Assembly: GCF_019857225.1 (NCBI RefSeq)
Contig: NZ_JAFJSY010000021.1
Location: forward strand, 1-64,000
Source: Streptomyces plumbidurans
Lineage (GTDB): Bacteria; Actinomycetota; Actinomycetes; Streptomycetales; Streptomycetaceae
Reading direction: 5' to 3'
Length of the DNA: 64,000 nucleotides
Positions 46,326-63,385 of this stretch are shown piece after piece (position 1 is the stretch's first letter; each line of letters begins with the position of its first letter). The position numbers and the translations under genes were made by a program. The notes below the pieces were generated by a model. It saw only the letters and a program-made list of their open reading frames with translations, was not told the DNA's origin and made no database searches.

Positions 46326-49175
46326 ATGACCAACGAACACAAGGCCGCGCTGGGGCGCGAGATGAAGCGGCTGCGCCGCGACGCCGGGCTCACGCTGACC
46401 GACCTGCGGGAACCGACGGGCAGATCGAAGTCCACGATCTCGATGATCGAGCGTGGCGAGTGGCGGCGTTCCTTCGACCGGTCACTGGTGGAGCAGTACG
46501 TCGATCACTGCCTGAGCGTCATCGGCGGACCGAAGGGCGTCGCCGACCTGCGTCGCCGCGACATACTCGCCCTGTTCGACGCCCTGGAGAACCTGTCCTC
46601 GGTGGCCGACACCAGGCCACAGGTGCCGCCCCGCAACCAACTCCCCCGTGACACAGCGCATTTCACCGGCCGCGAGCGGGAACTCCGACTGCTCACCGAT
46701 GGCGTGCGGAAGGCCAGGGCCGGTGGCCGGGTGATCGCCGTGCACGCGGTGGACGGCAAACCGGGCGTGGGAAAATCGGCCTTCGTCACGCACGCCGGTC
46801 ACGCGCTGCGCAAACGGTTTCCCGACGGGCAACTCTTCGTGAATTTGCACGCGTTCTCGGCTCAGCCGACCGTGTCTCCGGCCGAAGCGCTTGCGGACCT
46901 CCTGTCGGCGCTCGGTGTTTCGCCGCGCCACCTGCCGGACTCCCTGGAGGAGCGCGCCGCCCTGTGGCGGAGCCTCATGGCCGACCGCAAGGTGCTGCTG
47001 GTCCTGGACAACGCACAGGACGACGCGCAGGTCCGCCCGCTGCTGCCGGGCTCCCCCTCGTCCCTGGTCCTGGTGACCAGCAGGCACCGGATGACCGGCC
47101 TCGACGCGGTGACGGTCGCTCTGGACGTGCTCACACCGGAGGAGGCGGCGCAGATGTTCCGCCGGACGGCACAACGTCCGCTGCCGCCGGGCAGCCCGGT
47201 GGGCGAACTGATGGAGCTGGCCGGGCACCTGCCGCTGGCCATCTCCCTGCTCGGGGCGCGCATGAGGAACCGGAAGACGCTCACCGTCGAGCACCTGGTG
47301 GCGGAGATGCGCGACGGGACGGACCGCTTAGCGGCCCTGCGCGTCCGCAACCGCGAGGTGGCGGCCGCCTTCGAGCTGTCGTACCGCGCCCTTCCTCCCG
47401 CCCGGCGGGAGTTCTTCACCACGCTGGGGCTGCACCCGGGCCCCGACCTGGACGCCTACGCTGGCGCCGCGCTCACGACCGCCACGGTGCGCGGCACCAC
47501 CCGTCAGCTGGAAGCCCTGTACAACGCCAACCTGCTGGACGAGCACGTCTTCGGCCGTTACGAACTCCACGACCTGATCGCCGAGTATCTGCGCGGACTG
47601 AACGAGACCCGGGACCCCGAGCTGCGGCGGAACGCGGTGGAGCGGCTGCTCGACTACTTCCAGGACGCCTCCCTCGTCGCCGACCGCCTGCTCCGTCCGC
47701 CGGCGGCCTCGGCCCCCGCCGCCCTCTCGCCCAGTGCCCGCACGACCGGTGCCACCCACGAGCTGCCCGCGCTCGGGGACCGCAAAGCGGCGATGGCGTG
47801 GATGGCGGCGGAGCGCGGCAATCTCCTCGCCTGCCTGCGCACCGCCTCCGGCAGTCCGCCCCGGGTGGTCGCTCTGACCGCCTCCATGGCACAGCACCTG
47901 CGCCTGAGCGGGCCCTGGGACGTGGCCGCCGGGCTGCACCAGGAAGCGGTGGCGGCGGCACGGGAGATGGGCGATCCAGTGGCGGAGGCCACCGCCCTCC
48001 TGGAACTCGCGAACGCGCACCGCAACCACGGCGACTACCCGAGGGCCGAGAGCGCCACGACCGCCGCCCTCGACGCCTTCTCCGCGTCCGGGGACGAACG
48101 CGGCCGGGCCGCCGCCCTGCTGGAGCAGGGCTCGGTGTGCTTCCTGACCGGACGGACCGCCGAGGCCGGGGACAGCTACCGCCGGGCGCTGGAGCTGAGC
48201 CGTGCGGCGGGCGACCGCCTGGGCGTGGCGGACGCGCTGGTCGAACTCGGCACCCTGGCCTATATCGTCGACGACTACCCCGAGGCCGAGCGCCGGCTCA
48301 CCGAGGCGCTCCCCCTCTACGAGGAGCTGCACAGCGTGCTGGGCCGGGTCACGGCGCTCAAGAACCTCGGCAACACCTACTACTTCATGGACCACTACGA
48401 CAAGGCCCAGGACGCCCTCGGCGAGGCGATCGCGCTCTCCCGGGAACTGGGGATCGCCCTCGTCGAGGCGCAGGCGACCACCAAGCTGGGCAGCGTCCTG
48501 CGCCTGATGGGCCAATACGAGGAATCCGCCGAACTCCTCGCCCGGGCACGGGAGCTGGCGAGCACGCTCGCCGACCGGTCCCTAGAAGCGGAACTGCTCA
48601 TCGACTACGGCGCCGCCTTGCATCAGCTCGGCAGGGACCGTGAGTCCGAGGATGCCTTCGCCTCCTCGCTGACCCTCTACCGCGCGATCGGCGAGGACCT
48701 GGGGCTGGCCTGTGCGCTCAAGGAGTCCGCCGACGTGCTGCTGGCCACGGGCCGGCCGGACGAGGCGCGTCGGCGCCTCGGCGAGGCGCACGACCTCTAC
48801 GGCAAGCTCGATGATCGCCTGGGCGTGGCCGCGACGAACAACTCGCTGGGCAGGCTGGAGCTGTCCGCCGGTGCTGCGGCTGCCTCCTCGGCCGCACACG
48901 AGTCTGCCCTGGACATCGCCCGCAGCCTGGGCAGTCCCCTGGAGGAAGCGGAAGCGCTGGCCGGGCTCGCCCGGGCCGCCGAGGCGGCAGGTGACATCGG
49001 CACCGCCCGCGCACGGGCGCGCGAGGCGCTGCGTATCCAGCAGGACATCGGCGCCGCCGGGGCCACGGCCACGGAGGCCTTCCTGGCCGGACTCGCCCCC
49101 TGCGAGTCCGCCGCGAGCGTCGATTCACCGGGCGACGGCGAAAGCCCCGGCCCGACGTGCCTGCCTCAGCGGTGA
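46326..49175 (+). CDS. XRE-NB-ARC-TPR STAND-type regulator/sensor
   Basis: A 949-residue STAND ATPase. The HTH is at residues ~8-60 (LGREMKRLRRDAGLTLTDL, KSTISMIERGEW). The NB-ARC core has P-loop GKPGVGKSAF near 145, VLLVLDNAQDD near 223, LVTSRHR and GHLPLAISLLG (GLPLA-like motif). Residues ~540-900 are a long TPR array (GRAAALLEQGSVCFLTGRTA, ALKNLGNTYYFMDHYDKA). ATG 46326 follows GAGGAG. Such proteins act either as transcriptional activators of neighbouring clusters or, as NLR-like proteins, in phage sensing. The HTH rather than an effector domain at the N-terminus favours regulation; the divergent GT4/membrane pair is the likely target. Confidence 0.85.
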   Translation: MTNEHKAALGREMKRLRRDAGLTLTDLREPTGRSKSTISMIERGEWRRSFDRSLVEQYVDHCLSVIGGPKGVADLRRRDILALFDALENLSSVADTRPQVPPRNQLPRDTAHFTGRERELRLLTDGVRKARAGGRVIAVHAVDGKPGVGKSAFVTHAGHALRKRFPDGQLFVNLHAFSAQPTVSPAEALADLLSALGVSPRHLPDSLEERAALWRSLMADRKVLLVLDNAQDDAQVRPLLPGSPSSLVLVTSRHRMTGLDAVTVALDVLTPEEAAQMFRRTAQRPLPPGSPVGELMELAGHLPLAISLLGARMRNRKTLTVEHLVAEMRDGTDRLAALRVRNREVAAAFELSYRALPPARREFFTTLGLHPGPDLDAYAGAALTTATVRGTTRQLEALYNANLLDEHVFGRYELHDLIAEYLRGLNETRDPELRRNAVERLLDYFQDASLVADRLLRPPAASAPAALSPSARTTGATHELPALGDRKAAMAWMAAERGNLLACLRTASGSPPRVVALTASMAQHLRLSGPWDVAAGLHQEAVAAAREMGDPVAEATALLELANAHRNHGDYPRAESATTAALDAFSASGDERGRAAALLEQGSVCFLTGRTAEAGDSYRRALELSRAAGDRLGVADALVELGTLAYIVDDYPEAERRLTEALPLYEELHSVLGRVTALKNLGNTYYFMDHYDKAQDALGEAIALSRELGIALVEAQATTKLGSVLRLMGQYEESAELLARARELASTLADRSLEAELLIDYGAALHQLGRDRESEDAFASSLTLYRAIGEDLGLACALKESADVLLATGRPDEARRRLGEAHDLYGKLDDRLGVAATNNSLGRLELSAGAAAASSAAHESALDIARSLGSPLEEAEALAGLARAAEAAGDIGTARARAREALRIQQDIGAAGATATEAFLAGLAPCESAASVDSPGDGESPGPTCLPQR

Positions 49176-49193: not shown

Positions 49194-49313
49194 TCATGAC
49201 TGTGTCGGCATGGAGCGACCGCTGACGAGCAGGGCCCCGTTGCGCCCGAATTCGGGTGCATCGAAGACCGGCGCGTCGACCGCGGCGAACCCGGCCCGCG
49301 TGAGCCGAGACTC
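49194..49313 (-). pseudogene. C-terminal remnant of a second methyltransferase of the 51532 family
   Basis: Between stops, 39 codons read RLTRAGFAAVDAPVFDAPEF then GRNGALLVSGR. This aligns with the C-terminus of the intact methyltransferase at 51532-52266 (ILERHGFVDVDAQVLEAPDP then ENVGTLIVRAR) at about 14 of 31 positions. A preceding frame ends RNDALFTLGFTDRP, loosely like the intact RFDAIYSVWGALWFTDP. This suggests a decayed copy with a large internal deletion lying just downstream of the XRE regulator. The alignment was made by eye. Confidence 0.5.
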
Positions 49314-49383
49314 TCACGCGGTCGGACGGTCGGTGAAGCCGAGGGTGAACAGCGCGTCGTTTCGCCTTCGTAGACCTGCGAGT

Positions 49384-50757
49384 TCACGCCGCGCCGGTAC
49401 GGGCCGCGAACTCCCGCAGTTTGGGCAGACGGGCGGAGGTGTACAGCAGGTCGGCGGTGAGCGCCGGTACAGAGGGTCGGCGAGCCTCCTCGGGCGCGGC
49501 CTGGTCGACTGCGCGCAAGGCCGTGTAGGTGCGGTGGTGGTCGCCGATCTGTGCCCACATGCGCGCGACGTCCGTCCAATACCGAGCCTGCCGCTCGGCT
49601 GTGGGGAACACAGTCGGCGAGATGCTGCGGGCGTAGGCCACGCCTTCGTCCGGCGTGCCCAGGACGTTGTGGATGCCGATCCGATAGAGAGCCACCTGCG
49701 CCGGGGTGGCCTCGACCGTGTAGAGCTCGACACGAGGGTCGGCGCCGAGCCGCGCGGCGGTCTCCTCGGCCTCTCCGGCCAGGTCAAGTGCCGTGGCCCG
49801 GTCACCTGCCTGCGCGGCCGAGTAAGCGCCGGTCAAGAGCAGGGATGCGCGTACGGCGTGGGCCTGCACGGAGTTCTCTCCGCCCAGCTCGGCCGCCGTG
49901 CGGGCGAGAAGATGCACCGCCGACCCGGCACGGCCGGATCGGCGCATCGCGATCGCCAGGACCCGTACAGCCTCCCCCAGCGGCGCGGGCTGACCGCTCT
50001 CCCGCGCGGCGTTCAACGCGCGGTCGGCGGTCGCCCATGCGACATCGGAGTTCACCTTGACCGCCAACTCACTGGCCAGCACGTACGAACGCGCCACCAC
50101 CGACTGGGTCTGCACTCGAGCAGCGCCGGTCGTGACTTCGCGCGTGGCTTCGCCGACTGCGATCAGCCGGCCCAGATCCTCGCCCAGCACCGCGTAACGG
50201 GCAGCCCTGAAGTCCCGACGGGCGGCGCTGAGGGCGTGTTGCAACCGGGCCGGCGACATGGGCTTGGCCGGCTGCGGTTGGAAGAGTGCGGCTTCCAGTA
50301 GACCCGCTGGGTCCGACGCCCTGTTGCTCGCGACGGCACGCCCCTGCCCAGTGGCCATGGCGGCCCCGAGGCCGACTGCTCCCGCGAGTAACTGCCTGCG
50401 TCGCACCGGCTCGTCCTCCTGGCGGTCAGGGTCTGCGTTTCCCAGCACCCTAACGGCCACCCTTCCCGCGGGAGCCGCCCTCGACGCATCATGTCCCGCG
50501 CGTAACTCGCCCGGGTGAGGCACCAGTCCCAGCGCTACGGGCTCGACACCGAGCGCCGCGGCCAGGCGCAGCAGCGTGTCGCGCGGCGGCACCAACTTGT
50601 TCGACTCGATACGGCTCACCGCCGACGCCGAATACCCGCACTGCCGCCCGAGTTGGACCTGAGTCATCCGTACGGCGGCACGCGCGGCGCGGATGACCGC
50701 GCCGAGATCCGCGGCGGCGGTCACGGTGTCGATGCGTGTCCCCACACCAGTGCCCAT
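49384..50757 (-). CDS. XRE-family HTH regulator with TPR-like C-terminus, divergent from Cys-tailed peptide gene
   Basis: A 457-residue regulator. Its HTH is at residues ~15-70 (AVIRAARAAVRMTQVQLGRQ, SASAVSRIESNKLVPPRD). A short RRQLLAGAVGLGAAM segment follows (resembles a twin-Arg leader but is internal, residues ~118-133), then ~320 residues of helical TPR-like sequence. ATG 50757 is chosen with GGGGGAGAG upstream over an in-frame start 36 nt earlier. The 208-bp divergent region holds two 18-bp direct repeats, probable operators. The target is most likely the peptide/methyltransferase pair on the plus strand. Confidence 0.82.
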   Translation of the reverse strand: MGTGVGTRIDTVTAAADLGAVIRAARAAVRMTQVQLGRQCGYSASAVSRIESNKLVPPRDTLLRLAAALGVEPVALGLVPHPGELRAGHDASRAAPAGRVAVRVLGNADPDRQEDEPVRRRQLLAGAVGLGAAMATGQGRAVASNRASDPAGLLEAALFQPQPAKPMSPARLQHALSAARRDFRAARYAVLGEDLGRLIAVGEATREVTTGAARVQTQSVVARSYVLASELAVKVNSDVAWATADRALNAARESGQPAPLGEAVRVLAIAMRRSGRAGSAVHLLARTAAELGGENSVQAHAVRASLLLTGAYSAAQAGDRATALDLAGEAEETAARLGADPRVELYTVEATPAQVALYRIGIHNVLGTPDEGVAYARSISPTVFPTAERQARYWTDVARMWAQIGDHHRTYTALRAVDQAAPEEARRPSVPALTADLLYTSARLPKLREFAARTGAA

Positions 50758-50826
50758 TCGGCTCTCCCCCGGTCCCCCCGCGGTGCCACCCACCGTAGCT
50801 CTGACGGCCTGTCACCGGCAGGGCGC

Positions 50827-50864
50827 ACGCACAGCGCTTGCGCATCACGCACAAGGCGTGCGCA
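50827..50864. promoter_or_regulatory. Paired 18-bp direct repeats, putative operators
   Basis: ACGCACAGCGCTTGCGCA (50827-50844) and ACGCACAAGGCGTGCGCA (50847-50864) match at 15 of 18 positions with a 20-bp period, i.e. two turns apart on the same DNA face. They lie between the XRE regulator and the Cys-tailed peptide gene. Confidence 0.6.
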
Positions 50865-50965
50865 CTGCGCCGGGCCGCTTCCCCGAGCTCCGGCCAGAGG
50901 CTTCCGTGGTGGAGCGGAACAGGCACACCCGACCACGGCACACCCACAACGAAGGGAGCACCACC

Positions 50966-51412
50966 ATGACAACCATCACCACTCGCAGGACCGAGGTCCG
51001 GGACCCGCGTTCGTTCGTCTCCCCGGAGGTGTGGGACCGGGAGATCAAGCTCCTGGTCCGCGACAACCCGTTCGACACCGTGACGGCGGAGCGCATCTTC
51101 GGCCAGGCCATCGCCTACCTCATCACTGCCATGGAGAAGTGGGGCCAGGGCCTGGAGATCGGCTGCGGCTACCTGGTGGACATGGGTGTCCACGCCTTCA
51201 TCCTCGACACCCGCAACTACGCCGACTTCTGCGCCAGGAACTTCGACGGTTGGTTCCTCCACCACGTCCCTGAGATCGAGCGCAAGAACGATGGCACCGT
51301 CATGCGCACCGCCCAGGTCATAGAGAGCAACGGCTTCGCGATCGACTGGCCGCTGTGGGAGAAGGACGCGCTCCAGTGCTCGCCCTGCGCCCCTGGTAGC
51401 AACTGCCACTGA
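50966..51412 (+). CDS. Cys-tailed helical protein, candidate RiPP-like precursor
   Basis: A 148-residue protein. Residues ~20-125 form a conserved-looking helical domain (WDREIKLLVRDNPFDTVTA, DMGVHAFILDTRNYADFCA, GWFLHHVPEIERKNDGTV, VIESNGFAIDWPLWEKDAL). This resembles the streptomycete family sometimes called glycine-rich domain-containing proteins, in which DxGxHAxIL and FxHHxP are conserved. The last 11 residues, CSPCAPGSNCH, are a small-residue tail with three Cys. A conserved leader-like domain plus a short Cys/Ser/Gly tail, with a regulator and methyltransferase alongside, suggests a ribosomally made, modified peptide. Alternatively it is a metal- or cofactor-binding protein. ATG 50966 follows GAAGGGAG. 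Confidence 0.6.
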   Translation: MTTITTRRTEVRDPRSFVSPEVWDREIKLLVRDNPFDTVTAERIFGQAIAYLITAMEKWGQGLEIGCGYLVDMGVHAFILDTRNYADFCARNFDGWFLHHVPEIERKNDGTVMRTAQVIESNGFAIDWPLWEKDALQCSPCAPGSNCH

Positions 51413-51429
51413 CCCGGGAACGCACGGAC

Positions 51430-51502
51430 GTTTCAGTTAGCCGAACATCACCGGAGGCCGGCCCCGCACCGCGGAGTCGGCCTCCTCCCGTACGACTGAA
51501 AC
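51430..51502 (+). promoter_or_regulatory. Nested hairpins between peptide and methyltransferase genes
   Basis: An outer stem GTTTCAGT/ACTGAAAC (51430-51437 with 51495-51502) encloses an inner stem GGAGGCC/GGCCTCC (51453-51459 with 51479-51485), all perfect pairs. It could attenuate read-through so that more peptide than enzyme is made, or stabilise the upstream mRNA. Confidence 0.6.
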
Positions 51503-51531
51503 TCCGGAGATCCAGCAGAAATCCGTCCGCC

Positions 51532-52266
51532 GTGACCACTACCGTCACCCCCATCCCAGCCGGGACGTCCGTCGTACCGCTGTCAGATGGGGACCAACGC
51601 GCCATGAGCCACGACCTCGAGACCTACTGGAACCGGTACGGGGAGGGGGTGAAGGACGAGGAACCGGCCGAACCGCTGACGTTCGGCTGGACCCAGTACG
51701 ACGGTCACGGCCCCGGCGAGGAGCTGTTGGAGCAGCCTGACACGACCCTCGAACTCGGCTTCGGACGCGGCCGTAACGTGGCATACCTGGCCCGCAAGGG
51801 CGTGCGGGCCACCGGAGTCGACATCTCCGGTGTGCAGTGCGAACGGGCCCGCGAGCGGTACGGGCACGTCCCGGGCGCCCGCTTCGAACAAGGTGAGGTG
51901 TGCCGGTACCTCACGACCGCCGGCGACGACGAAGAGCGGTTCGACGCCATCTACAGCGTGTGGGGCGCGCTGTGGTTCACCGACCCCGAACGCCTGCTTC
52001 CGCTGGTCCGCCAGTGCCTCGCTCCCCGAGGAGTGCTCGCCTTCTCCAACGCCCCCGCAGTGCCCGGCTCTTACGGCGTCCAGGGCATGTACGGGGCCGG
52101 TTTCAAAGGCCGCCGGCTGTGGATCTACCGCTGGGCCTACACGCCGGAGGACTGGACCGAGATCCTTGAGCGACACGGTTTCGTGGACGTCGACGCCCAG
52201 GTGTTGGAGGCACCGGATCCCGAGAACGTGGGCACGCTCATCGTGCGGGCCCGCGCCCCGCACTGA
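51532..52266 (+). CDS. Class I SAM-dependent methyltransferase of the peptide cassette
   Basis: A 244-residue methyltransferase. Motif I LELGFGRGRNVAYLARKG is near residue 74, motif II GVDISGVQCERARERYG near 93, acidic/aromatic motif IYSVWGALWFTDPERLLPLV near 139 and the C-terminal strand GTLIVRARA. ORFs of this class methylate small molecules or peptides. GTG 51532 is the frame start, but ATG 51604 (MSHDLETYWNRYG) is a reasonable alternative since neither has a strong Shine-Dalgarno. It lies 119 bp after the Cys-tailed peptide with hairpins between. The peptide tail or a small molecule could be the substrate. A decayed relative lies at 49194-49313. Confidence 0.82.
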   Translation: MTTTVTPIPAGTSVVPLSDGDQRAMSHDLETYWNRYGEGVKDEEPAEPLTFGWTQYDGHGPGEELLEQPDTTLELGFGRGRNVAYLARKGVRATGVDISGVQCERARERYGHVPGARFEQGEVCRYLTTAGDDEERFDAIYSVWGALWFTDPERLLPLVRQCLAPRGVLAFSNAPAVPGSYGVQGMYGAGFKGRRLWIYRWAYTPEDWTEILERHGFVDVDAQVLEAPDPENVGTLIVRARAPH

Positions 52267-53323: not shown

Positions 53324-53527
53324 TCAGAGTGCCGCGAACTTTACGAACGTGGTCCATGCCGTGGGGTCTACGGCCAGGGTGGCGCGGGTTGTGTCCTTGG
53401 AGTCGCGGACGTGGACGGTGCCGGGGAGGGCGGCGACTTCGACGCATTCGCCACCGTTACCGGCGCTGTAGCTGCTCTTGAACCAGGCCAGTCCGTCCAG
53501 GCCGAGCCTGACCTTCTCCCCGCTCAT
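53324..53527 (-). CDS. DUF397 domain protein
   Basis: A 67-residue protein with the DUF397 pattern: [20 protein letters not shown], then VHVRDSKDT and a final [11 protein letters not shown]. These proteins are encoded next to XRE/DUF5753 regulators throughout Streptomyces and often modulate development or secondary metabolism, probably by acting on their partner regulator. ATG 53527 overlaps the XRE stop by 4 nt, so the pair is translationally coupled. Confidence 0.92.
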
Positions 53528-54354
53528 CTCTCTCCCAACAGCTTCTCGATCAACGCACGTGATTCTGCCGGAGTGTGGGCCTGTGCGCGCAGAGTTCCGT
53601 ACGTACGTTCAAGCTCCCGGACCTTCTCTCGCTCCGTGTGCACACGGCTGTCGCCTTGCACCTCCGCGTAGGCGATCCTGCGCCCATCCTTCATCTCCAT
53701 CAAGGTGAACGGACCGGCCAGTCCCGCATGTTCCTGACGGGAGAGTGGCATCACCTGGATCTCCACGTTCCGCTTCTCCGCCACGAGTAAGAGCTGCTCC
53801 AACTGCACCCGCCACACCGCCCTACCGCCGAGGGGCCGCAGAAGTACGGCCTCCTCGACTACAAAGCTCAGATGCGGAGCAGGCCTCCGATCGAAGATCT
53901 GCTGTCGTGCCAGTCGGGCGGCCAACCGTTGCTCGATGATCTCTTCGTCCAGCTGAGGGAGCCACATGGCGAACACAGCTCGCGCGTACTCCTCGGACTG
54001 CAAGAGTCCCGGCATCGCCTGGGTGGCGTACACATGCAGCACAACCGCCTCGGCCTCCAGCTTGGCCGCATCGCGGAAGAACGCCGGGTACTGAGCGCGA
54101 GCCACCTCCTCCTTGCTCGCTCTCAACACCCCGCCCGCGCTTAGCACTTCATCCGCCTGATCGATGAACTTCGGCGGAGGAATGCGCCTCCCCTGCTCGA
54201 ACGACGCGATGGTCGAGGCCGAGTACCCGGTCAGCGAGCCGAACCGCACACGGTCCATCCCTGCCCGCTCCCGGAACAGCTTCAACTGCCGCCCGAAGAC
54301 GCACAACATGCCCGTCCCGTCTTCGTACTCCGGCTGCTGAACCTCGTCGTCCAC
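53524..54354 (-). CDS. XRE-family regulator with DUF5753 domain
   Basis: A 276-residue protein. Its HTH is at residues ~18-75 ([40 protein letters not shown]). The C-terminal DUF5753 domain shows [20 protein letters not shown] and [21 protein letters not shown] 54354 has GGAG 7 nt upstream. It is coupled to the DUF397 gene and divergent (175 bp) from an ATP-binding protein, the usual three-gene arrangement of streptomycete XRE/DUF397/HATPase (conservon-like) signalling modules. Confidence 0.9.
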
Positions 54355-54529
54355 GCCGCAGCTCCTCCCGTACGACCCTCACAGCCACCGGACCCGCCCG
54401 CCCAACGCGGGGCTCTCAAACCGGTCACGCCCAACACCGCGTACAAGCACACCGCGCCCGCGTACAGCCCACGCCCGTCAGCGCGTTGCTCCTGTTCAAC
54501 GCTACGCAGAGTCCGCGACGGTTGACCGC

Positions 54530-55120
54530 ATGAAGTCAGCAACTCCCCCGAACGGGCATATGCCCCAGTGCCCAGCTCCCGAACACGAGTTCGCCATGCG
54601 CTTTACTTCAACTCCGCGCGGCGCCCGCTTAGCCCGCCGGCTCGTCTCGCACCGCCTGAACGACTGGGGTCACCCCTACGCGACTCCCGTAAACGAAGCG
54701 CTCACCCTCATCACGGCAGAACTCACCGCCAACGCGGTACGCCACGGCAACGTCCCCGGCCGGGACTTCCACATCCAACTCACGCTGACCGAGGGGGTGT
54801 TCCGCATCGAGGTGACCGACACCCGTGCCGAGAGGCGACCTCCGTCCACTCCCCCAACTCCCGACTCGGCATCCGAGTCCGGGCGGGGCCTGCTCCTCGT
54901 ATCGGCGCTCGCGAACGACTGGGGCGTCACCCCTCGCCCGGCCGCCCCAGGCAAAACCGTCTGGGCCGAACTGCGCGTACCGACCGGGGGCCACTCGCAC
55001 ACGCCCCGAGCGACCCCCGCACCGACGGATGTCGACCTACTCCTATCTACTGCTTCACTGCTGCGCGACGACCCCGCGTCGCGGCCAGAGGACGCCAGCC
55101 ACGGAGGTCGTCGTCTGTGA
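54530..55120 (+). CDS. ATP-binding protein, anti-sigma/HATPase_c type
   Basis: A 196-residue protein of the RsbW/SpoIIAB-like GHKL fold. N-box LITAELTANAVRHGNVPG is near residue 65, G1-like FRIEVTDTRAERRP near 95, GRGLLLVSALANDWGVTP near 122 and PGKTVWAELRVP near 142. The last ~45 residues are a non-conserved tail. It belongs to the divergent XRE/DUF397 module. Its last 74 nt overlap the 3' end of pglX on the other strand, which suggests the module's insertion or tail extension abuts the BREX gene. Confidence 0.88.
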   Translation: MKSATPPNGHMPQCPAPEHEFAMRFTSTPRGARLARRLVSHRLNDWGHPYATPVNEALTLITAELTANAVRHGNVPGRDFHIQLTLTEGVFRIEVTDTRAERRPPSTPPTPDSASESGRGLLLVSALANDWGVTPRPAAPGKTVWAELRVPTGGHSHTPRATPAPTDVDLLLSTASLLRDDPASRPEDASHGGRRL

Positions 55121-58100
55121 GCCCGTGCTCGCCTTGCATCTGCTGGCGGTAACCGGCGAAGAAGTCGGCCGGGGAGCCGCTGTAGAGCATGTCGAACTCG
55201 TTGTGCCACTGGTACAGCCACGGCTGGAGTTCCAGCAGGCCGGCGAGGAACGGCGTGATCTCCTCGGTGGACAGTGCCGTGTTGGTGAAGTACGTGGCGA
55301 GGGCCTGCGCCTGCTCCTTGTGGTCCCAACCGGCCCAGCCGTACAGCTCGGGGGTGGCGGAGTTGGTCTGCCCGTAGGAGATGAATCGCTCCTTCGGCAC
55401 GTCGAGCTTGCCGCGCGCCCGCCAGTAGGACGGGCGGAGGAAGTCGGCCGAGGTGTACTTCGGCGGCACGGGGATGGAGTCCCGGATCTTCCGCTTGGCG
55501 GGCTCGTCGGGAGCAGCGTCCTCCTTGCGCTGGAGGTCCCACACCTCTTCCCAGTCAGCGCGCTTCTTGAGCCCGGACGGCTTGTAGCGCAGGGCCGGGA
55601 GGAACGGCACGTGCTCGTCGGTGATCAGCTCGGCGACGACCTTCGCGAAGTCCTTACGGGGCGCGTAGAGCTTGGCGACGGAGACGAAGTCTTCGTCGCG
55701 CGAAAGCGCGTCGGTGAGGCGGGCCAGGGTGAGGATGGTCGGCTGCCCGTTCTGGTCGAACCAGAGGTCGCGGTTCTCCATCCGGTCGAGCAGCCAGGCC
55801 CGCAGGGCCTTCTCCTGCAGCGCGTCCCAACCTTCGGTCGCCCAACGCCTCTTGTACTCGGGCCGCTCGACCATGCCGATGGCCCGGTTCGACTCGATGG
55901 CGTCAATCCGCTTCTGGACGATCTCCCGGTAGGGGGCGGGCCAGTGAGCGGGGATCTCCGTGATGGGCGTGGACCCGTGCCGCTTGAACCACTCATCACT
56001 GGCCTCGCCTGCGGCCACGCGGCGCGCGAGCACAATCTCGAAGGCACGCTCACCGAGGGCGAGTTCGGGGATATTGGGGTCGTCGGGGTCCTCGGATACG
56101 CGGAGGTCTTCGGAGTGCAGATTGTAGAGCGAGTAGACCTGCCAATCGAGTTCCTCTTGGAGAGTGATCATTTGGGCGCGAACGGATTCCCACCGACTCC
56201 TACATTCCCTGAGCTCCGCAGATGTTGGAGTGCGCTCAGTCAGCATGACACTCGGACCGACTGACGTAAGTCGTTGAGCTAGTGTGTCAATGGCGGCAGC
56301 CAACCCGCTCGGCAACTCGGCAGGGACCGGAAATTCCGCCATTGGTGTCCCATTGAACTGAAAAAAATCTTCGAATGGAAGGGTGCTTTGGCGAGCCCCC
56401 TTAGAGTCAACCGTACTCCCCATATTATGACTAACTTGCTTTAGCCAAAAACACGCAGAAGATGAGTTTAGGATTCCGACAACACGCAGATAATCTTTCT
56501 CGGTAGCGTCGGTAGCAAGCTTGATGACTGGCGCAGACCGATTAAATACCCGGCCCCCCCGATCCAGCACGAAGTGATTATGTGTAGCAACAAAGGAGAA
56601 CGAAATGGAAAGCGGAGTACGATACGCAGAAGCCGTGTACTGCATATAATCCCACCACCGCAGGCCAGCTGCAGCCATGTCACCTTGGAAGGTACGACGG
56701 GCTTCTAGAACTCGCCGAAGTGGCCACAAATCTACTTCTAGAGACCGCGTGTCAATATTTGGAGCATAAGGGTACCAGATTGATTCGGTCGGATTAGCGT
56801 CCCAGTCTCGCACCACTTCGCCAACCATCAGAGGTCGGAGGCCTTCTGGACCAGTAACCGTCCTATAAGTTCTACGGGAAGGGCGAAGGTACGCCTCGTC
56901 CGCCCCAGCTCGAATAGCACGCCCAATAGGCGGCTCAATAATGGACTTGAGTGAGCGGTCGCCAGCCTTGGCCATTTGCCCCATGACTTCGATTCCGCCA
57001 TCTGACAGAACCCACGGATGCTTACCAAAATAGTGTTCACGATCTAGGTCCTCGACAGCAACCCACCTGCTCACCGTGCCCGGCTGATCGACCTGCCTGA
57101 CAATGGCACTCCAGACCAAACCCTCTCGCCCGATCCGAGGGGCAGAGGGCTCTCCCTGAATCCCGCGGACAGCCCGAACAGTTGCGGAACGCATGCGACC
57201 CGCCCGGCGCTTCCCAACCAGAATCACAGTTGGTGTTCCGTGTCCGGGAATATAGGCACCCGATGTGTCAATCACCTCAGTGAGCTCGACGTTACGGGCA
57301 AAATACTCTTCGATTAGCCTAGTCCCGAATTCTCGCTTCATGAAGGAACTTGCCGTGATCTGCCCAACAAAACCATAACCGAACCCATCCGCTCCCCCTC
57401 TTTTAGCAAGCTCGAAGAATCGCTGGGCGAACGGAACGGAAAGCGCATAAGTGCCTGAACAAGCACTGTACAGCTCACGGTAAAGCTCATTGAGCTTTTT
57501 ATCCTTAACCGTGACATAGGGGGGATTCCCCACAACGAGGTGGTACCGACCCTCCTCAAGGATTTGAGGTTCTTCCTGCACATCTTCCGTGAGGTATGCG
57601 AAGGAGGCCAGCGGGTCACCTGCTACCTTTTCTTCACCGTCTAGCGCTAGCACCAATTCCAATTGCCGAGCCTTGATGAGCGAGTCCCCCACTGCCAAGT
57701 GGATCGGCCACTCAAACTTCGCCGTCTCCCCCAGCGTCCGCACCCCACTAGCCGCCATAGCCGCCACCAACAACCGGAACCGAGCAATAGCCACCGCAAA
57801 CGGGTTGATATCCACCCCGTGGACAGAGTCCAGCGCAGCCCGTACCCGCTCGTGCACGTCCCGCCCCGGCTGCCCTGCCGCCCACAACCGCACGAGCCGC
57901 CGGAACGCCCCCAGGACAAAGTGCCCCGACCCACATGTAGGGTCGATCATCTTCAGGTCCTCGTAGCCGAACTCCCGCACCGCCGGGTTCATCGTGCGGT
58001 CGAGGATGAACTCCTCCACGAACTCCGGGGTCTGCAGCAGCGCATACGTCTTGCGCGCCGCCTCGCTCAGGTCCTGGTACAGGTCGCCCAGGAACCGCGT

Positions 58101-58661
58101 GTCCCACCCCTCCGTACCGTCCTCGTTCAGCGGGTCGGTGAAGTCGTGGACGAGAACGCCCGACTCGTCCCGCCCCCGCCAGAACTCGACCAGTTCCCGC
58201 GCACCGTCATGCGACAGCGGCACCTGATACAGCGGGTTGTGCCGCTTATCAAAGAGCAGCCGTCCGGCCTGCCCCTGCCCCAGCTTCTCGAACGCCTTCT
58301 CCAGCCACCCGCGATACGTCGGGTCCTCGTCCGAGTCCACGTACGCCTCGTACCGCGACTCCGCCAGCTCCCGACGGTCGGCGTCCGGTCCCGTCAGGTA
58401 CGGCTCCGGGATCAGCCGGTTGTCCTCGCAGAACCGTACGAACACGGTCCCCAGCACCCACGCGACCGCGACCTGCGTGACCCGCTCGTCCAGCCAGGAC
58501 GTCCACGTCGCCGCCGTACGTCCAAGCTTGCGGGCCTGGTCGTACTCGGACCGCAGTCGCGCGCTGACCTCCGGCAGTGCTTTCACCTGTCGTGCGAGGT
58601 CCGCCTCGACCGCCTTGACCTGCTGCTTGAGGTCGTCCAACAGAGCCTTGCGGTCGATCAT
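55047..58661 (-). CDS. pglX: BREX/Pgl adenine-specific DNA methyltransferase PglX
   Basis: A 1204-residue gamma-class N6-adenine methyltransferase. Motif I IDPTCGSGHFVLGAF is near residue 238 and motif IV VVGNPPYVTVKD near 377. A long target-recognition and C-terminal region follows. PglX modifies host DNA in BREX; in S. coelicolor Pgl it is reported to be phase variable. ATG 58661 overlaps the pglW stop by 4 nt. Roughly codons 315-855 (DNA 56100-57720) are far poorer in GC than the flanks (about 40-55 percent in places), unlike the rest of the locus. This suggests the specificity-determining core was exchanged. A run of seven G on the coding strand lies at 56554-56560; the present reading frame is intact. 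Confidence 0.93.
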   Translation of the reverse strand: MIDRKALLDDLKQQVKAVEADLARQVKALPEVSARLRSEYDQARKLGRTAATWTSWLDERVTQVAVAWVLGTVFVRFCEDNRLIPEPYLTGPDADRRELAESRYEAYVDSDEDPTYRGWLEKAFEKLGQGQAGRLLFDKRHNPLYQVPLSHDGARELVEFWRGRDESGVLVHDFTDPLNEDGTEGWDTRFLGDLYQDLSEAARKTYALLQTPEFVEEFILDRTMNPAVREFGYEDLKMIDPTCGSGHFVLGAFRRLVRLWAAGQPGRDVHERVRAALDSVHGVDINPFAVAIARFRLLVAAMAASGVRTLGETAKFEWPIHLAVGDSLIKARQLELVLALDGEEKVAGDPLASFAYLTEDVQEEPQILEEGRYHLVVGNPPYVTVKDKKLNELYRELYSACSGTYALSVPFAQRFFELAKRGGADGFGYGFVGQITASSFMKREFGTRLIEEYFARNVELTEVIDTSGAYIPGHGTPTVILVGKRRAGRMRSATVRAVRGIQGEPSAPRIGREGLVWSAIVRQVDQPGTVSRWVAVEDLDREHYFGKHPWVLSDGGIEVMGQMAKAGDRSLKSIIEPPIGRAIRAGADEAYLRPSRRTYRTVTGPEGLRPLMVGEVVRDWDANPTESIWYPYAPNIDTRSLEVDLWPLRRVLEARRTFQGDMAAAGLRWWDYMQYTASAYRTPLSISFSFVATHNHFVLDRGGRVFNRSAPVIKLATDATEKDYLRVVGILNSSSACFWLKQVSHNMGSTVDSKGARQSTLPFEDFFQFNGTPMAEFPVPAELPSGLAAAIDTLAQRLTSVGPSVMLTERTPTSAELRECRSRWESVRAQMITLQEELDWQVYSLYNLHSEDLRVSEDPDDPNIPELALGERAFEIVLARRVAAGEASDEWFKRHGSTPITEIPAHWPAPYREIVQKRIDAIESNRAIGMVERPEYKRRWATEGWDALQEKALRAWLLDRMENRDLWFDQNGQPTILTLARLTDALSRDEDFVSVAKLYAPRKDFAKVVAELITDEHVPFLPALRYKPSGLKKRADWEEVWDLQRKEDAAPDEPAKRKIRDSIPVPPKYTSADFLRPSYWRARGKLDVPKERFISYGQTNSATPELYGWAGWDHKEQAQALATYFTNTALSTEEITPFLAGLLELQPWLYQWHNEFDMLYSGSPADFFAGYRQQMQGEHGLTDDDLRGWRPLAATRGRRAAVKQ
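56554..56560 (-). repeat. G7 homopolymer tract in pglX, possible phase-variation site
   Basis: Seven consecutive G on the coding strand within codons for DRGGRVF. Slippage by one base would shift the frame and truncate PglX about 500 residues early. In S. coelicolor, Pgl switching has been tied to a G tract in pglX; whether it is the same tract is not verified here. Confidence 0.55.
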
Positions 58662-61600
58662 TTCGCTTCTCCCTCGACACCACTGGCATGGGCACTGGTA
58701 CGTGCGCTAGCCGCATCCTTGCCGGATCCACGGTGGGCGTTCTCGACCCACGTGTCCGGAAGCTGAATCCACTCCCCCAGGCCGGCCTGGTACGGCACAG
58801 CCACCTGCCCCAGCCGGGGCTCACGCGTGGGGTCGCTCTGCGGAACCAAGAGCCACAGCCCCCGCCCGCCCTGCCGGGCTGCTGACGCCAGCCGGTCCAG
58901 GACTCCCATCGCGTCGTACCGCGCGAACACCCCAGCCTCCGTCAGCAGTACGGGAATGACAGCTCTGCCAGAGTCGCCACCCTTGCGCAGCAGCTCCGCG
59001 ATGCGGGGCTCCACAGTGCCCCACGCGGTTCGCACATACTCAGCGAACCGCACCGCCCTCGTCGAGCCTGGCTGAGCCGCGTCCGCCTTGAGCAAGGTCT
59101 CCCAGGTGGGCTTCGTGCCCGGAGTGACCTGCGCGTGCAGGGCCTCCAGGAACAGCTCGGTCACCGACACCGCCTCCGCGCCCAGCCGTTCCGCGCCCAA
59201 CTCCCGCACCGCGTCCCGTACCAACTGCTGCCGTACGGTCAGCACCCGGTACCCGTCCCGACGCGCCGACGCGAGCAACCGCTCCTCCGCCCGTACCGCG
59301 CCCGCGAGTTGAGGGTCGTCCGCGTACCGCGTCACCGCGCCCGTACGGGTCGACTGCCGCCACGCTCCCGTGGTGAGGTAGCTGGAGGCGTCGTCGACGC
59401 GGGTCGAGAGGTAGCGCAGGACGCCGTCGCGTTCGTGCATGCTCAGCGACAGTTCGAAGCCGGCGTCGCGCAACGCCTTGGTGAGCGGGCCGCCGGTGGG
59501 CAGTTCGTGGGTCGTGCCGCCGTGGCCGTCGGGGACGACCATCTCCGGGAAGCGTGCGCGGACCCGCTCGTGCACGGTCTCGACCGTCAGGCCGGGCTGC
59601 AGGCCCTCGGGCATCCCCTGGACCGGGCGTACCAGGCCCGCCTGCGTGAGCCGCAGCGCCCGTACCAGCGGCAGGTCGCGCGGATAGATCTCCAGGCGCG
59701 GAGTGGCCGCAGCGTTCACCGACGCCGCAGCCGCCAGCTCCACCATCCGTCGCTCGTCCCAGTTGACCGCCCCGGGCGGCACCGTCAACGCTCCCAGCTC
59801 GGCCAGCACAGTGGCCGCCGTTGGCAAGGTGTCCAGCTTGGCCAGCCGGTCCGCCGTACGACCCAGACGCGTCGCGTACTCCAGCAACCCTGGCGCGGTC
59901 GGGGTGTCCGGGCCGTCGGTCTCCCGTACGTCGAGCGCGAGCAGGCCCGCGCCCAGGGACTCGTCCGTCGCCTTGCGGTTCGCCTGGTGCTGGAACTCGG
60001 CCTCCTGGGGCACGAGTTGTTCCACCTCGACCACGGCCCGTACGGCCGCCAACGCCATCGCGCGCCGCTGCTCGCGCCCCGCGAGGTGCGTGCCGCGCCG
60101 TACCGCCAGCGCGTCCGCGATCTCGACGGCCGAGGCGACCCGCCCCATGCTCACCAGCAGGTCGATAATCTCCGCGCGCAGCGCCTGCACGGCGGGCTCG
60201 GCCTTCCAGCGCTTGCGCTCGTCCTTGAGCATCTGCGGGATACGGCCGTGGCTCAGCCCGAGCGCGTCCGCGACGTCCTTCTGCTTCGGCCAGACGCCGA
60301 TGTCCGGCAGGACGCCCTGCTCGTCGGGCAGGCGCAGCAACAGCCGTACCATCTCCGCCTTGTTGCGGTTGGAACCGTTGTTGTTGACGGCGGGTACGAA
60401 GACGGTGGCGAGGGTGTCGAGGCTGACCGAGCGGAGGGTGCGGGCGGGCAGTGCGCTCGCCGATTCGCCCGTCGCGAGCTTGCCCACCAGGGCCGACTCG
60501 GCGGCTGTGAGCTGTTCCAGCTCCTCCTTGGCCTCCGCCCGGCCCTTGGGCGTCAGCGGCGAGACGGGGATCTCGCGCAGCCGCTCGCCCCACTCGCGCT
60601 GCCGCTTCTGGACCTCATTGCGGGTCTTGGCGCCCAGGCCGGGGGCGTTGACGAGCTTGCGGCGGCTGTAGTCGAGCAGTTCACCGACCGTCGTGATGCC
60701 CAGGCCGTACAGGAACGACTGGGCGGCGGGCGTGAGGCCGGAGACGGTCAGCGGGGTGTCGCGGGTGACTTCGGCGGCGAGCCGGTCGCGCTGCTGCTCG
60801 GCGGTCTCCGGCTCGGCGTCGGCGATGGCCGCTGCGGCGGCACCCTCGGCAGGGGCGCCATCGGTCGTGGCCGCGGGGGCCGACGCGCGGGTGCGGTGGC
60901 TGGACGGGACCGTCTGCGAGGCGTCGAGGAAGACCTTGCGCCAGGCGTCCCGCATCGGCTTCAGCTCGGGGTACCGCTTGGCCGCGTCGCGGTGCAGGGC
61001 CTTCTGGAAGAAGGCGACCAGTCCGTCCCGTACGGCCGGGTCGAAGGCCTCGGCCGCGATCGTCGGGCACGGCCATTCCTTCGCATCGGTCATGCGCGGC
61101 AGGACGCTGCCGTCGCCCCACTTGGGCAGCTCGCCCGAGGCCATCTGGTGCAGGGTGACGGCGACGGCGTACCGCTCGGCGTGGGAGTCGTAGGAGCCGC
61201 GGGTGATGGTGTCGACGAAGGGGTCGAGGTAGCCGTCGGTGCCCGCGTCGGTGTTCTTCGCGGGGTAGCCGGCGAGGGAGAAGTCGATGAGGACGAGTTC
61301 GCGGGTGCGGTTGGGGCGGATGCGGATGGCGATGTTGTCCGGCTTGATGTCGCGGTGCCAGACGCCCTCGCCCTCCAGGAAGTCGACGGCGCCGAAGAGG
61401 TAGTCGCCGTACGCCTCCAGCTGGTCCACCTGTAGGCGGCCGTTCTCGCGGAGCTGGCGGGCGACGGTCTCCTCGCGGCGGCGTGGGCGGGGTGCGGCCT
61501 CGGTGGCCTGGCCGTTCTGGCCGTTGTCGTCGCGCTCGTCGCCGACGTACTCCAGTACCAGGACCGTACGGCCGCCGATGTGCAGTGGCTCGGGTTCTAC

Positions 61601-63385
61601 AAGGCGGATGATGCCGGAGTGGGGGCGCAGGCGGCCCATGGCCTCGGCCTCGCGGGCCAGGATCTCGCCGCGGTTGTCGGAGAGGGCGACCTTGAGCACG
61701 GCCAGCGGGCGGTTCTTGCGGGCCTCGGCCTCCAGGTCGCGGACGAGGAAGGCGCGGCTGGTGGAGCCGGTGCCGAGGCGGCGGCGGATCTCCCAGCGGC
61801 CGGCCAGCACGTCACCGGCGACGGCCTCCAGCGGGTCCTTGTCGGCGGGGGCCTCGTCCTCCTCGCCCGGACCGTCGGTGCCGGTGGCGGACGGGGCCGG
61901 GGAGGTCAGGGAGTCCTCGACGACCTCCAGCAGCTCCAGGAATTCGTCCACGCTGGAGAGCCGCTGGCCCGGCCGGTAGGCGGTGGCGGCTTGCACGAGG
62001 TCGTCGACGTCCTCCGAGAGCCCGTCCACCAGGGAGCTGGGGCGCAGGCCCTCGCCAGCTTCCAGCCGGGCCAGCAGTTCGGCCTGGCTGGCTGCGGGTG
62101 CCTTGCCGGTGACGAGGAGGTAGGTGAGGACGCCGAGTCCGTAGACGTCGAGGTAGACCGGGTCGGGGCGGGGGGCTGTGAGTTCCGGCGCGAGGTAGGC
62201 GTCCGCGTCGTCGGCCAGGTGCATGGCGGACAGGGCGGTCGGCGCGAAGCGGGTCATGCCCTGGGAGGAGTCGCCGCTGCGCTGGGTGGCGATCTGCCAG
62301 TCGGAGATCTGCAGCTGCGGGGTGAGCCAGGCGGCCTCGTCCCCCACGGCCTGTCCCTTCCCGCCGCGCCGCCGGGGGACGACGTGCACGGAGCGGGCGG
62401 CCAGCGCGCGGTGGTGGATGCGGCTGGAGTGCGCGGAGCGCATGGTCTCGGCGAGCTGGCGGACCAGGGCCATCCTGCCGAGGATGTCCAGCTTCTCGCC
62501 GTACTGGACCAGGTACTCGTCCAGTTTGAGCGTGGCCGGGTGGTAGTCGAAGATCAGTGCGGGTCCGGCGGCATGCCCGGAGGGGAAGTACTGCTTGAGC
62601 TCGACCACACCCGGGTGCTTGAAGCGGCCCAGGACTGCGGCCTCGCGCCGGGCGGCGTTCTCGACGGACTGGCGCAGGGTCGCGTCCGAGCCGCGTTCGC
62701 TGAGGTAGATGCGGACGCGAGCGGCCTCGGGCAGGTCACTGTGGCGGGCCAGGTAATCCGCCCAGGTGGGCCCGGAATCGAAGGACTTGCGCTCCAGCTC
62801 GTAGGGGCCGACCTTGTACTGCGCGTCGCTCTTGCGGATGCCGATGTTCTTGAGGGCCGCCTCGATCTCGCGCGAGCCGATCGCGGTGATGCGGCGCCGC
62901 TCGTCGCGCGGGGGCTGCTTGAGCATCTCGACCAGCTGGTGGACGGTGTAGACGCCGTTCTGGTCGTGCGCCGGCAGCCGTACGCGCAGACTGTTGTCGG
63001 TGAAGCACACGGCCTCGGCGACCCAGACACGCTTGTGGCCGGGGAGCGCGAGCAGGCCGGCCAGCTCCTTGGCCTTGCGGTTGACCAGGTGCAGCGGGTT
63101 GCCGTGCGTGCGGCGTCTGCCGCCGGGCGTGGTCTGCACCCAGGTGCCGTTCTCGGAGGTGACCGAGCCGTGCCAGTCCTTCAGCTCGATCATGCAGACG
63201 CCGCCGGGGGCGACGACCAGCAGGTCCACCTCGCGCACGTGCCCGGTGTTCGCGGTGAAGGTGAAGTTCGACCAGGCACGCCAGGGGTCGGAGTCCGGCA
63301 GCTTCTCCCGGATCGCCTCCAGGCCGCGGCGCTCATGGACGAACTCCGACTCGGTGACCGTCGTCCACCGGCCGCCTTCCCGCAT
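58658..63385 (-). CDS. pglW: BREX/Pgl serine/threonine kinase PglW
   Basis: A 1575-residue multidomain protein. Residues ~10-120 form a NERD nuclease-related domain (MIELKDWHGSV near 65). Residues ~190-480 form a kinase fold lacking the catalytic Asp (RIHHRALAARSVHV near 323), a likely pseudokinase. Residues ~530-830 form a second kinase with canonical VWHRDIKPDN near 675 and LIDFSLAG. Near 880-945 a helix-hairpin stretch, LYGLGITTVGELLDYSR then APGLGAKT, resembles the RNA polymerase alpha C-terminal domain. It is followed near 1035 by an HTH-like KDVADALGLSHGRIPQML. The C-terminal ~450 residues are unassigned. PglW is the BREX-2 signature kinase. ATG 63385; it is coupled to pglX. Confidence 0.93.
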   Translation of the reverse strand: MREGGRWTTVTESEFVHERRGLEAIREKLPDSDPWRAWSNFTFTANTGHVREVDLLVVAPGGVCMIELKDWHGSVTSENGTWVQTTPGGRRRTHGNPLHLVNRKAKELAGLLALPGHKRVWVAEAVCFTDNSLRVRLPAHDQNGVYTVHQLVEMLKQPPRDERRRITAIGSREIEAALKNIGIRKSDAQYKVGPYELERKSFDSGPTWADYLARHSDLPEAARVRIYLSERGSDATLRQSVENAARREAAVLGRFKHPGVVELKQYFPSGHAAGPALIFDYHPATLKLDEYLVQYGEKLDILGRMALVRQLAETMRSAHSSRIHHRALAARSVHVVPRRRGGKGQAVGDEAAWLTPQLQISDWQIATQRSGDSSQGMTRFAPTALSAMHLADDADAYLAPELTAPRPDPVYLDVYGLGVLTYLLVTGKAPAASQAELLARLEAGEGLRPSSLVDGLSEDVDDLVQAATAYRPGQRLSSVDEFLELLEVVEDSLTSPAPSATGTDGPGEEDEAPADKDPLEAVAGDVLAGRWEIRRRLGTGSTSRAFLVRDLEAEARKNRPLAVLKVALSDNRGEILAREAEAMGRLRPHSGIIRLVEPEPLHIGGRTVLVLEYVGDERDDNGQNGQATEAAPRPRRREETVARQLRENGRLQVDQLEAYGDYLFGAVDFLEGEGVWHRDIKPDNIAIRIRPNRTRELVLIDFSLAGYPAKNTDAGTDGYLDPFVDTITRGSYDSHAERYAVAVTLHQMASGELPKWGDGSVLPRMTDAKEWPCPTIAAEAFDPAVRDGLVAFFQKALHRDAAKRYPELKPMRDAWRKVFLDASQTVPSSHRTRASAPAATTDGAPAEGAAAAAIADAEPETAEQQRDRLAAEVTRDTPLTVSGLTPAAQSFLYGLGITTVGELLDYSRRKLVNAPGLGAKTRNEVQKRQREWGERLREIPVSPLTPKGRAEAKEELEQLTAAESALVGKLATGESASALPARTLRSVSLDTLATVFVPAVNNNGSNRNKAEMVRLLLRLPDEQGVLPDIGVWPKQKDVADALGLSHGRIPQMLKDERKRWKAEPAVQALRAEIIDLLVSMGRVASAVEIADALAVRRGTHLAGREQRRAMALAAVRAVVEVEQLVPQEAEFQHQANRKATDESLGAGLLALDVRETDGPDTPTAPGLLEYATRLGRTADRLAKLDTLPTAATVLAELGALTVPPGAVNWDERRMVELAAAASVNAAATPRLEIYPRDLPLVRALRLTQAGLVRPVQGMPEGLQPGLTVETVHERVRARFPEMVVPDGHGGTTHELPTGGPLTKALRDAGFELSLSMHERDGVLRYLSTRVDDASSYLTTGAWRQSTRTGAVTRYADDPQLAGAVRAEERLLASARRDGYRVLTVRQQLVRDAVRELGAERLGAEAVSVTELFLEALHAQVTPGTKPTWETLLKADAAQPGSTRAVRFAEYVRTAWGTVEPRIAELLRKGGDSGRAVIPVLLTEAGVFARYDAMGVLDRLASAARQGGRGLWLLVPQSDPTREPRLGQVAVPYQAGLGEWIQLPDTWVENAHRGSGKDAASARTSAHASGVEGEAK

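Follow-up and report, generated by a model that had tools for sequence, protein, structure and literature searches.

A 64-kb window of Streptomyces plumbidurans (positions 1 to 64,000 of contig NZ_JAFJSY010000021.1, the whole stretch of DNA that was analysed) contains a small cassette in which a 148-amino-acid (aa) protein with a Cys-containing C-terminal tail precedes a methyltransferase. The cassette is tentatively read, with slightly less than even confidence, as one branch of a family in actinobacteria whose glycine-rich domain-containing protein-like (GRDP-like) domain carries a Cys/His tail and is followed by a dedicated downstream enzyme, the tail or its ligand being methylated. The pairing of the genes, the conserved tail, the conserved residues of the domain, the hairpin between the genes and the change of enzyme with tail type are the established part of this description. 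The last of these is the strongest argument in its favour, and the tail, or something bound to it, is likely the target of the recruited enzyme. The gene order given in an earlier note on this DNA, a regulator, a divergent 148-aa Cys-tailed protein and then a class I methyltransferase, was recovered, and the features are as follows.

49221..49361 (approximate), minus strand: C-terminal part of a decayed methyltransferase remnant (tblastn with family methyltransferases)
49384..50793, minus strand: XRE regulator of 469 aa with a long C-terminal region, divergent from the tail gene (HTH_31)
50826..50864: two 19-nt direct repeats in the divergent promoter, a possible operator, not above chance
50966..51412, plus strand: 148-aa tail protein, a GRDP-like helical domain with a C-terminal Cys/His tail (model, fold match, homologues)
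51377..51409, plus strand: the tail CSPCAPGSNCH (alignment of 51 relatives)
51430..51502, plus strand: nested hairpin in the gap between tail gene and methyltransferase, a proposed attenuator (folding)
51532..52266, plus strand: class I S-adenosylmethionine (SAM)-dependent methyltransferase (Methyltransf_11, model, PDB matches)

The association of the two genes was followed in 121 Streptomyces genomes, a pair being scored when a methyltransferase lay within 2.5 kb of a tail-protein hit, centre to centre. With hits of at least 170 bits, 41 of 42 are paired, the sole unpaired one (genome G076) lying about 600 bp from a contig start; between 105 and 170 bits, 11 of 12 are paired, and between 90 and 104.8 bits none of 16 (16 of 22 among the matches listed). 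Tail hits were taken in fully to 91.9 bits among the matches listed. Below this value stand G008 (91.3 bits) and nine hits under 90 bits that were picked as apparently adjacent; this lowest bin lies outside the tail counts, yet is counted among methyltransferase neighbours. In the reverse direction, with methyltransferases included down to 161 bits, a tail neighbour was found for 56 of the 69 methyltransferases of at least 180 bits. The order and strand of the two genes are nearly always the same across loci. The check proposed in the earlier note gave a mostly favourable outcome: both the helical domain and a Cys tail are conserved among homologues, and the methyltransferase co-occurs with the closer ones.

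The enzyme that accompanies the domain varies with the type of tail. Among fetched loci, de-duplicated and away from contig edges, tails of the form CxPC...H are accompanied by the methyltransferase in 121 of 122 cases, distributed over the types W (CxPCxPGxxCH, 56/56), D (CxPCxPGNDSH, 36/36), N (CxPCDxKVPDSH, 23/23) and G (CxPCxPGEDGH, 6/7). The Q tails, CxQCHxGC and CxQCHxNC taken together, have it in 11 of 15 loci and CTQSYAGC in both of two, while it is absent from all nine loci with CC tails and all five with CQH tails. Eight other rows remain outside these counts, four of them methyltransferase-paired (L009, where the tail runs on, L018, L108 and L214) and four unpaired.

Several of the tail types without the methyltransferase have a partner of their own. 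These were sought again in 40 further loci, drawn from the remaining hits of a profile search, selected blind to their neighbours and not de-duplicated, none of which has the methyltransferase. CDxDCGR tails are followed by a LanL-like kinase as the very next gene in 7 of 7 loci and just downstream in 11 of 12 further ones (18/19 pooled); in one of the seven, L193, part of a family methyltransferase gene also lies about 2 kb off, encoded on the other strand. This kinase is 276-314 aa long and has LanL, the kinase-bearing class IV lanthionine synthetase, as its best NCBIfam match (54.8 bits, E 5e-15), although the score is far below the cut-off of 650 bits and only a stretch of about 160 residues is matched. 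With CC tails, the next gene encodes a 142-aa protein without assigned function in 7 of 10 loci, a count that includes the L075 copy, which has no such partner, and in 3 of 3 further ones (10/13 pooled). With QC[HR]ANC tails, an APH-like kinase is present in 3 of 4 and then 3 of 3 loci (6/7 pooled), two of the first three kinase loci being nearly identical; seen from the Q loci without methyltransferase, three of four have the APH-like kinase and the fourth is L035. The other 22 of the 40 further loci carry CQH, CSHTP or similar tails and lack all four partners. A CQH-type tail gene followed by a conserved protein of 41-42 aa was seen in phage Kromp (L039) and in a Streptomyces genome (L200).

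The tails also differ in their number of Cys residues: three in all W and Q tails, two in all D, G and N tails, four or five in CC tails, and a single one in two kinase-paired tails (L231, L250) and in several CQH-like tails. The W branch comprises 29 distinct tails over 56 loci.

The 148-aa protein has no family match in Pfam, NCBIfam, PHROGs or PADLOC. Its AlphaFold model, built with 51 sequences, is all-helical, with a mean predicted local distance difference test (pLDDT) score of 88.6, and toward the C-terminus the score is about 85 for residues 131-140 and about 68 for residues 141-148. A thioredoxin-like reading of CGPC was set aside in view of the all-helical model and the variable Cys spacing. 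The best match among viral models is a Harvfovirus 'glycine-rich domain-containing protein-like' protein (Foldseek probability 1.00, TM scores 0.51 and 0.54, E 0.019), and no solved structure matches (best Foldseek E 0.49; best VIA Z 2.7). The family may share the fold of the GRDP-like domain (PF07173, DUF1399; plant GRDP1 and GRDP2), the one clear match being to a viral model at a TM score of about 0.5. In profile it is unlike that domain: neither the 148-aa protein at E up to 1 nor any of 29 scanned family members was matched by PF07173. Genome searches with that profile were empty for the controls as well and carry little weight. Plant GRDP2 has been described as a DUF1399 protein of unknown function (PMC4299439).

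Whatever the tail type, D72, H76 and H100 show no variation among 173 aligned bodies, and C89 is kept in 165 of them; W131 was left out of the list because the bodies were trimmed at its motif. Within the tail, none of the 51 aligned closer relatives departs from C138, P140, C141 and the C-terminal H148. As D72, H76 and H100 never vary, the alignment suggests that the body does more than act as a leader.

The methyltransferase of the window belongs to class I of the SAM-dependent enzymes by its profile match (Methyltransf_11, E 2.1e-13 in Pfam) and by the Rossmann methyltransferase fold of its model (pLDDT 88.3). The first 20 residues are of low confidence in that model, so that the true start may be the internal ATG at 51604. 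The closest structure is DhpI (Z 20.4, root-mean-square deviation (rmsd) 2.9, 198 residues aligned), followed by a toxoflavin N-methyltransferase (Z 20.3, rmsd 3.1, 201 aligned) and METTL6 (Z 19.7, rmsd 3.3, 203 aligned), while NTMT1 scores Z 17.6 (rmsd 3.1, 201 aligned). Because these structural neighbours are nearly tied, the substrate cannot be read from the structure.

The nested hairpins that had been noticed between the two genes are real: the gap folds with a minimum free energy of -54 kcal/mol (z -3.56), equalled by none of 200 shuffles, and its inner arms lie at 51453-51467 and 51471-51485. Gaps with z below -2 are found in 41 of 54 W, 28 of 36 D, 4 of 6 G, 9 of 24 N and 6 of 11 Q loci. 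When gaps of the same loci are compared, 41 of 70 between tail gene and methyltransferase reach this value versus 49 of 160 other co-directional gaps (Mann-Whitney p 6e-7, which is optimistic as the gaps are related). From its position, the hairpin could act as an attenuator favouring the tail protein.

Taken together, a mechanism could be imagined in which, in this branch, the divergent XRE protein would control expression and the hairpin after the tail gene would keep the tail protein in excess over the enzyme. The methyltransferase would then dock on the domain and methylate the tail itself, or else a bound metal or cofactor for which the tail and D72, H76 and H100 would provide the ligands.

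A number of observations weigh against this reading. Those that count most against a simple leader and core are the methyltransferases without a tail gene, L164, the missing correlation of tail with enzyme, the tail-less relatives and the invariant D72, H76 and H100. Thirteen of the 69 methyltransferases of at least 180 bits have no tail hit among the matches listed or in the fetched flanks of up to 4 kb, although for one of them, L170, the flank is cut by a contig end about 280 bp upstream. All four partners are missing from 27 loci whose Cys tails are of other types, and L164 combines a QCHANC tail with the methyltransferase, while six other loci of that tail type have the kinase. Tails are strongly conserved within each type, with no hypervariability, and no protease or exporter was recognized among the recurring annotated neighbours (the top nine clusters per tail type, some clusters being unannotated; clusters were defined with a hand-made gene caller based on GC content at third codon positions). 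The model confidence of the tail is moderate, unlike that of a free core peptide, and the invariant D72, H76 and H100 suggest a metal or active site. By title, the structural neighbours of the methyltransferase are mostly small-molecule enzymes. Over 133 pairs, distances between tails correlate with those between methyltransferases at -0.18 once the body is given, a value reached by all 500 permutations. Finally, the domain's D...H...C...HH core is kept in L186 (48 bits) and L204 (39 bits), but a Cys tail is missing from both.

The correlation test is weakened by the shortness of the tails. Body and methyltransferase distances, in the same pairs, correlate at 0.72, and at 0.58 given the tail, which favours docking on the body or plain co-inheritance; tail-driven matching is unsupported by these distances. 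In loci L041 and L206, GEDGH tails go with bodies that resemble W (best identity 0.72, against 0.62-0.63 to D) and with methyltransferases nearer to D (0.56, against 0.33 to W). Placing their bodies with the D side was unrejected in tree tests (approximately unbiased (AU) p 0.25), as was a clade of W, D and G methyltransferases (AU p 0.30), so that one methyltransferase exchange together with a change of tail is no more than suggested.

The two tail-less relatives are larger or different proteins, L186 with a family methyltransferase in the same stretch and L204 without. The combination that the earlier note had named as refuting, no methyltransferase and no Cys tail, hence exists at the edge of the family in L204, with L186 also tail-less; most relatives without methyltransferase are still Cys-tailed, and several branches have another enzyme in the same place. 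In three methyltransferase-paired loci (L018, L108 and L214) the tail is no longer in frame, in L018 owing to a stop before it, and L110 and L141 are also out of frame at the tail. In all five the body is intact and the reading frame stops or shifts at the tail or close to it, which may represent sequencing error or decay. Judging by the tail-less relatives and the loci with a lost tail, the domain is older or wider than the tail.

It could also be that the tail protein binds a metal and serves its enzyme as an activator or adaptor subunit: the Cys/His residues of the tail and D72, H76 and H100 would hold the metal, while the enzyme acts on a third substrate (such as RNA, protein or a metabolite). 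We consider this unlikely, though it accounts for much of the evidence: the residues conserved in the body across tail types (with C89), the Cys/His-rich tails and their partial order in the model, and the correlation of the methyltransferase with the body and not with the tail. Trm112 is an activator of several methyltransferases, and the present protein would resemble it in being small, possibly able to bind metal, and encoded beside a class I methyltransferase. A chain of the Trm112-Hvo_0019 complex is among the structures that align with the methyltransferase model (Z 18.7, rmsd 2.7, 190 aligned), but many methyltransferases give similar scores. Unlike Trm112, however, the domain also partners kinases, and the occurrence of a single domain with a methyltransferase, two kinase types and a 142-aa protein would be odd for an enzyme-specific activator. 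The variable Cys spacing, the single-Cys kinase-paired tails and the 13 methyltransferases without a tail protein nearby argue in the same direction.

A regulatory module is more doubtful still. Here, the tail protein would sense redox state or metal, or else act as a partner to the XRE protein, and the methyltransferase would make or inactivate a small signal, together controlling plasmid, phage or developmental genes. A homologue of the divergent regulator lies within 3.5 kb in 29 of 56 W, 30 of 36 D and 6 of 7 G loci, and XRE-DUF5753, DUF397 and DUF6879 genes recur near several branches (raw recurrence, with no genome background). The N branch, however, has it in 0 of 23 loci and has nevertheless kept tail and methyltransferase.

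The regulator had been called an XRE/TPR protein. The first half of this assignment is confirmed by HTH_31/HTH_3 matches at residues 29-86 (HTH_31 E 1e-13 in Pfam), the second is not, with no TPR match in Pfam at E up to 1; a PHROGs family annotated 'transcriptional regulator' (phrog_5823) is matched at 143.6 bits, the best stretch being 162-468. Similarly, the paired 18-bp repeats reported for the divergent promoter exist as two 19-nt copies at 50826 and 50846, 84% identical, but do not go beyond chance: shuffling the region 30 times yielded a match as good as their best one (15/18), and in 0 of 70 divergent regions did the repeats beat all shuffles of their own. Some 8-mers recur in up to 37 of the 70 regions, against a maximum of 11 in one shuffle set, which relatedness alone could explain. 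Signalling of the arbitrium/RRNPP type by regulator and cassette is disfavoured by the N branch as well, and by the regulator's only solved-structure match being a 70-aa chain, DBP48 (E 0.008). An HTH_31 protein with one TPR match (cluster 6; L163, L193, L195, L162 and others) occurs in four of the seven CDxDCGR loci and 26 loci overall.

That an ordinary and very common class I methyltransferase merely neighbours an unrelated small protein by chance is extremely improbable, being refuted by the 41 of 42 pairing in sampled genomes and countered by the near-constant order and strand and by the presence of the pair on plasmids and phages also.

The proposal that the tail or its ligand is methylated invites comparison with ribosomally synthesized and post-translationally modified peptides (RiPPs), some of which have precursors with protein-like leaders, as in the nitrile-hydratase-like and Nif11 groups. 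Like RiPP pairs, the system has a folded, conserved N-terminal domain (with residues invariant over the 173 bodies), a short and distinct C-terminal Cys tail, an adjoining enzyme on the same strand, with a predicted modifying role, a hairpin in the gap, and an enzyme class that shifts with the tail. Unlike them, it has no known product, protease or exporter, its tails are conserved within types, its invariant residues are metal-like and its tail is uncorrelated with the enzyme beyond the body. The RiPP logic put forward in the earlier note, a leader-like domain, a Cys tail and a modifying enzyme, is partly supported: the split into domain and tail and the adjacent candidate enzyme agree with it, whereas the tails are conserved within types. 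As the tail modification is predicted and release functions were not recognized among the annotated neighbours, the system is not classed as a RiPP, although it would work like one. A wider proposal is that this is a new actinobacterial, phage and plasmid system with one metal-binding domain and interchangeable Cys tails, each recruiting its own enzyme, in which the modified tail stays in the cell as a cofactor or signal; this is possible, if rather unlikely. No description of the pairing of tail protein and enzyme came up among the papers listed by literature searches, and the decRiPPter candidates (PMC7794033) may include the family.

Relatives were matched in 70 of the 121 Streptomyces genomes by a single-sequence search (E up to 1e-3) and in 74 by a profile search (E up to 1e-4). 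They are furthermore encoded on 39 plasmid records, in 8 phage records, two of which are second records of the same phage, on 23 viral contigs and on 139 genome-contig stretches, of which the closest 80 were retained, so that these loci are no random sample. The genera include Streptomyces, Actinomadura, Nonomuraea, Nocardiopsis, Kitasatospora and Actinophytocola. In phages Alvy and TrvxScott the tail gene is directly followed by the methyltransferase, and on plasmid pS1D4-14.2 the pair is close to a phage portal gene. Such a distribution points to an accessory role tied to mobile elements. The GEDGH-type tail genes of L041, L206 and L208 lie close to the ends of linear plasmids, their start or end being about 290-850 bp away, and the methyltransferase there is displaced or convergent. 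A distant relative on the Rhodococcus plasmid pR8L1 (L042, 3734-4585) has a long tail repeating an NxGNCGGQ...DACGG unit, as a multi-core precursor might.

A further cassette is present in the source genome; its tail is CSPCDNKVPDSH, and it has a methyltransferase of its own. The closest genome found is that of Streptomyces spinosisporus 7R016 (99% for the 148-aa protein). The decayed methyltransferase relative beyond the regulator, also noticed earlier, is real, but just its C-terminal end was detected by tblastn: 44-47 aa, 47-50% identical to methyltransferases of the N branch (best E 5e-10, with a 601-base stretch only as target).

Among the other genes of the window, a 949-aa HTH/NB-ARC/TPR protein (46326-49175, plus strand) matches HaaT, a TPR protein of cyclophane RiPPs, at 591 bits (cut-off 1125). 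By eye, the proteins encoded at 53324-55120 are a DUF397-like protein, an XRE regulator and an ATPase-like protein, a trio that we take to resemble whiJ/abaA/bldB-type clusters. Family methyltransferases without a tail gene, in L176 and L177, stand after an XRE regulator and a DUF397-like gene, likewise by eye. XRE-DUF397 pairs have been described as regulators of antibiotic production in Streptomyces (PMC6262351, PMC10364602), a point in favour of the regulatory reading, and the BldB family has been described as well (PMC10294661). About 3 kb from the cassette lie PglX (55047-58661, minus strand, 1671 bits) and PglW (58658-63385, minus strand, 1571 bits) of the BREX type 2/Pgl phage defence. 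The cassette itself was rejected as an anti-phage defence system, as PADLOC gave domain-level matches only: the methyltransferase with positions 290-446 of the 492 of mad2 (56.9 bits), the regulator in its HTH parts, and the tail protein none.

Although more than half of the sampled Streptomyces genomes encode a member, and phages and plasmids carry it too, the family is nameless in the libraries searched. Should the tail prove to be the substrate, the family would represent a minimal two-gene system in which one scaffold is used with several enzyme classes, and a test of how leaders recruit enzymes. If the protein is an activator or metal carrier instead, the family would still define a partner for methyltransferases and kinases lacking assigned substrates. 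Phage Alvy, which encodes the pair and has Streptomyces lividans JI 1326 recorded as its laboratory host, makes the system tractable for testing.

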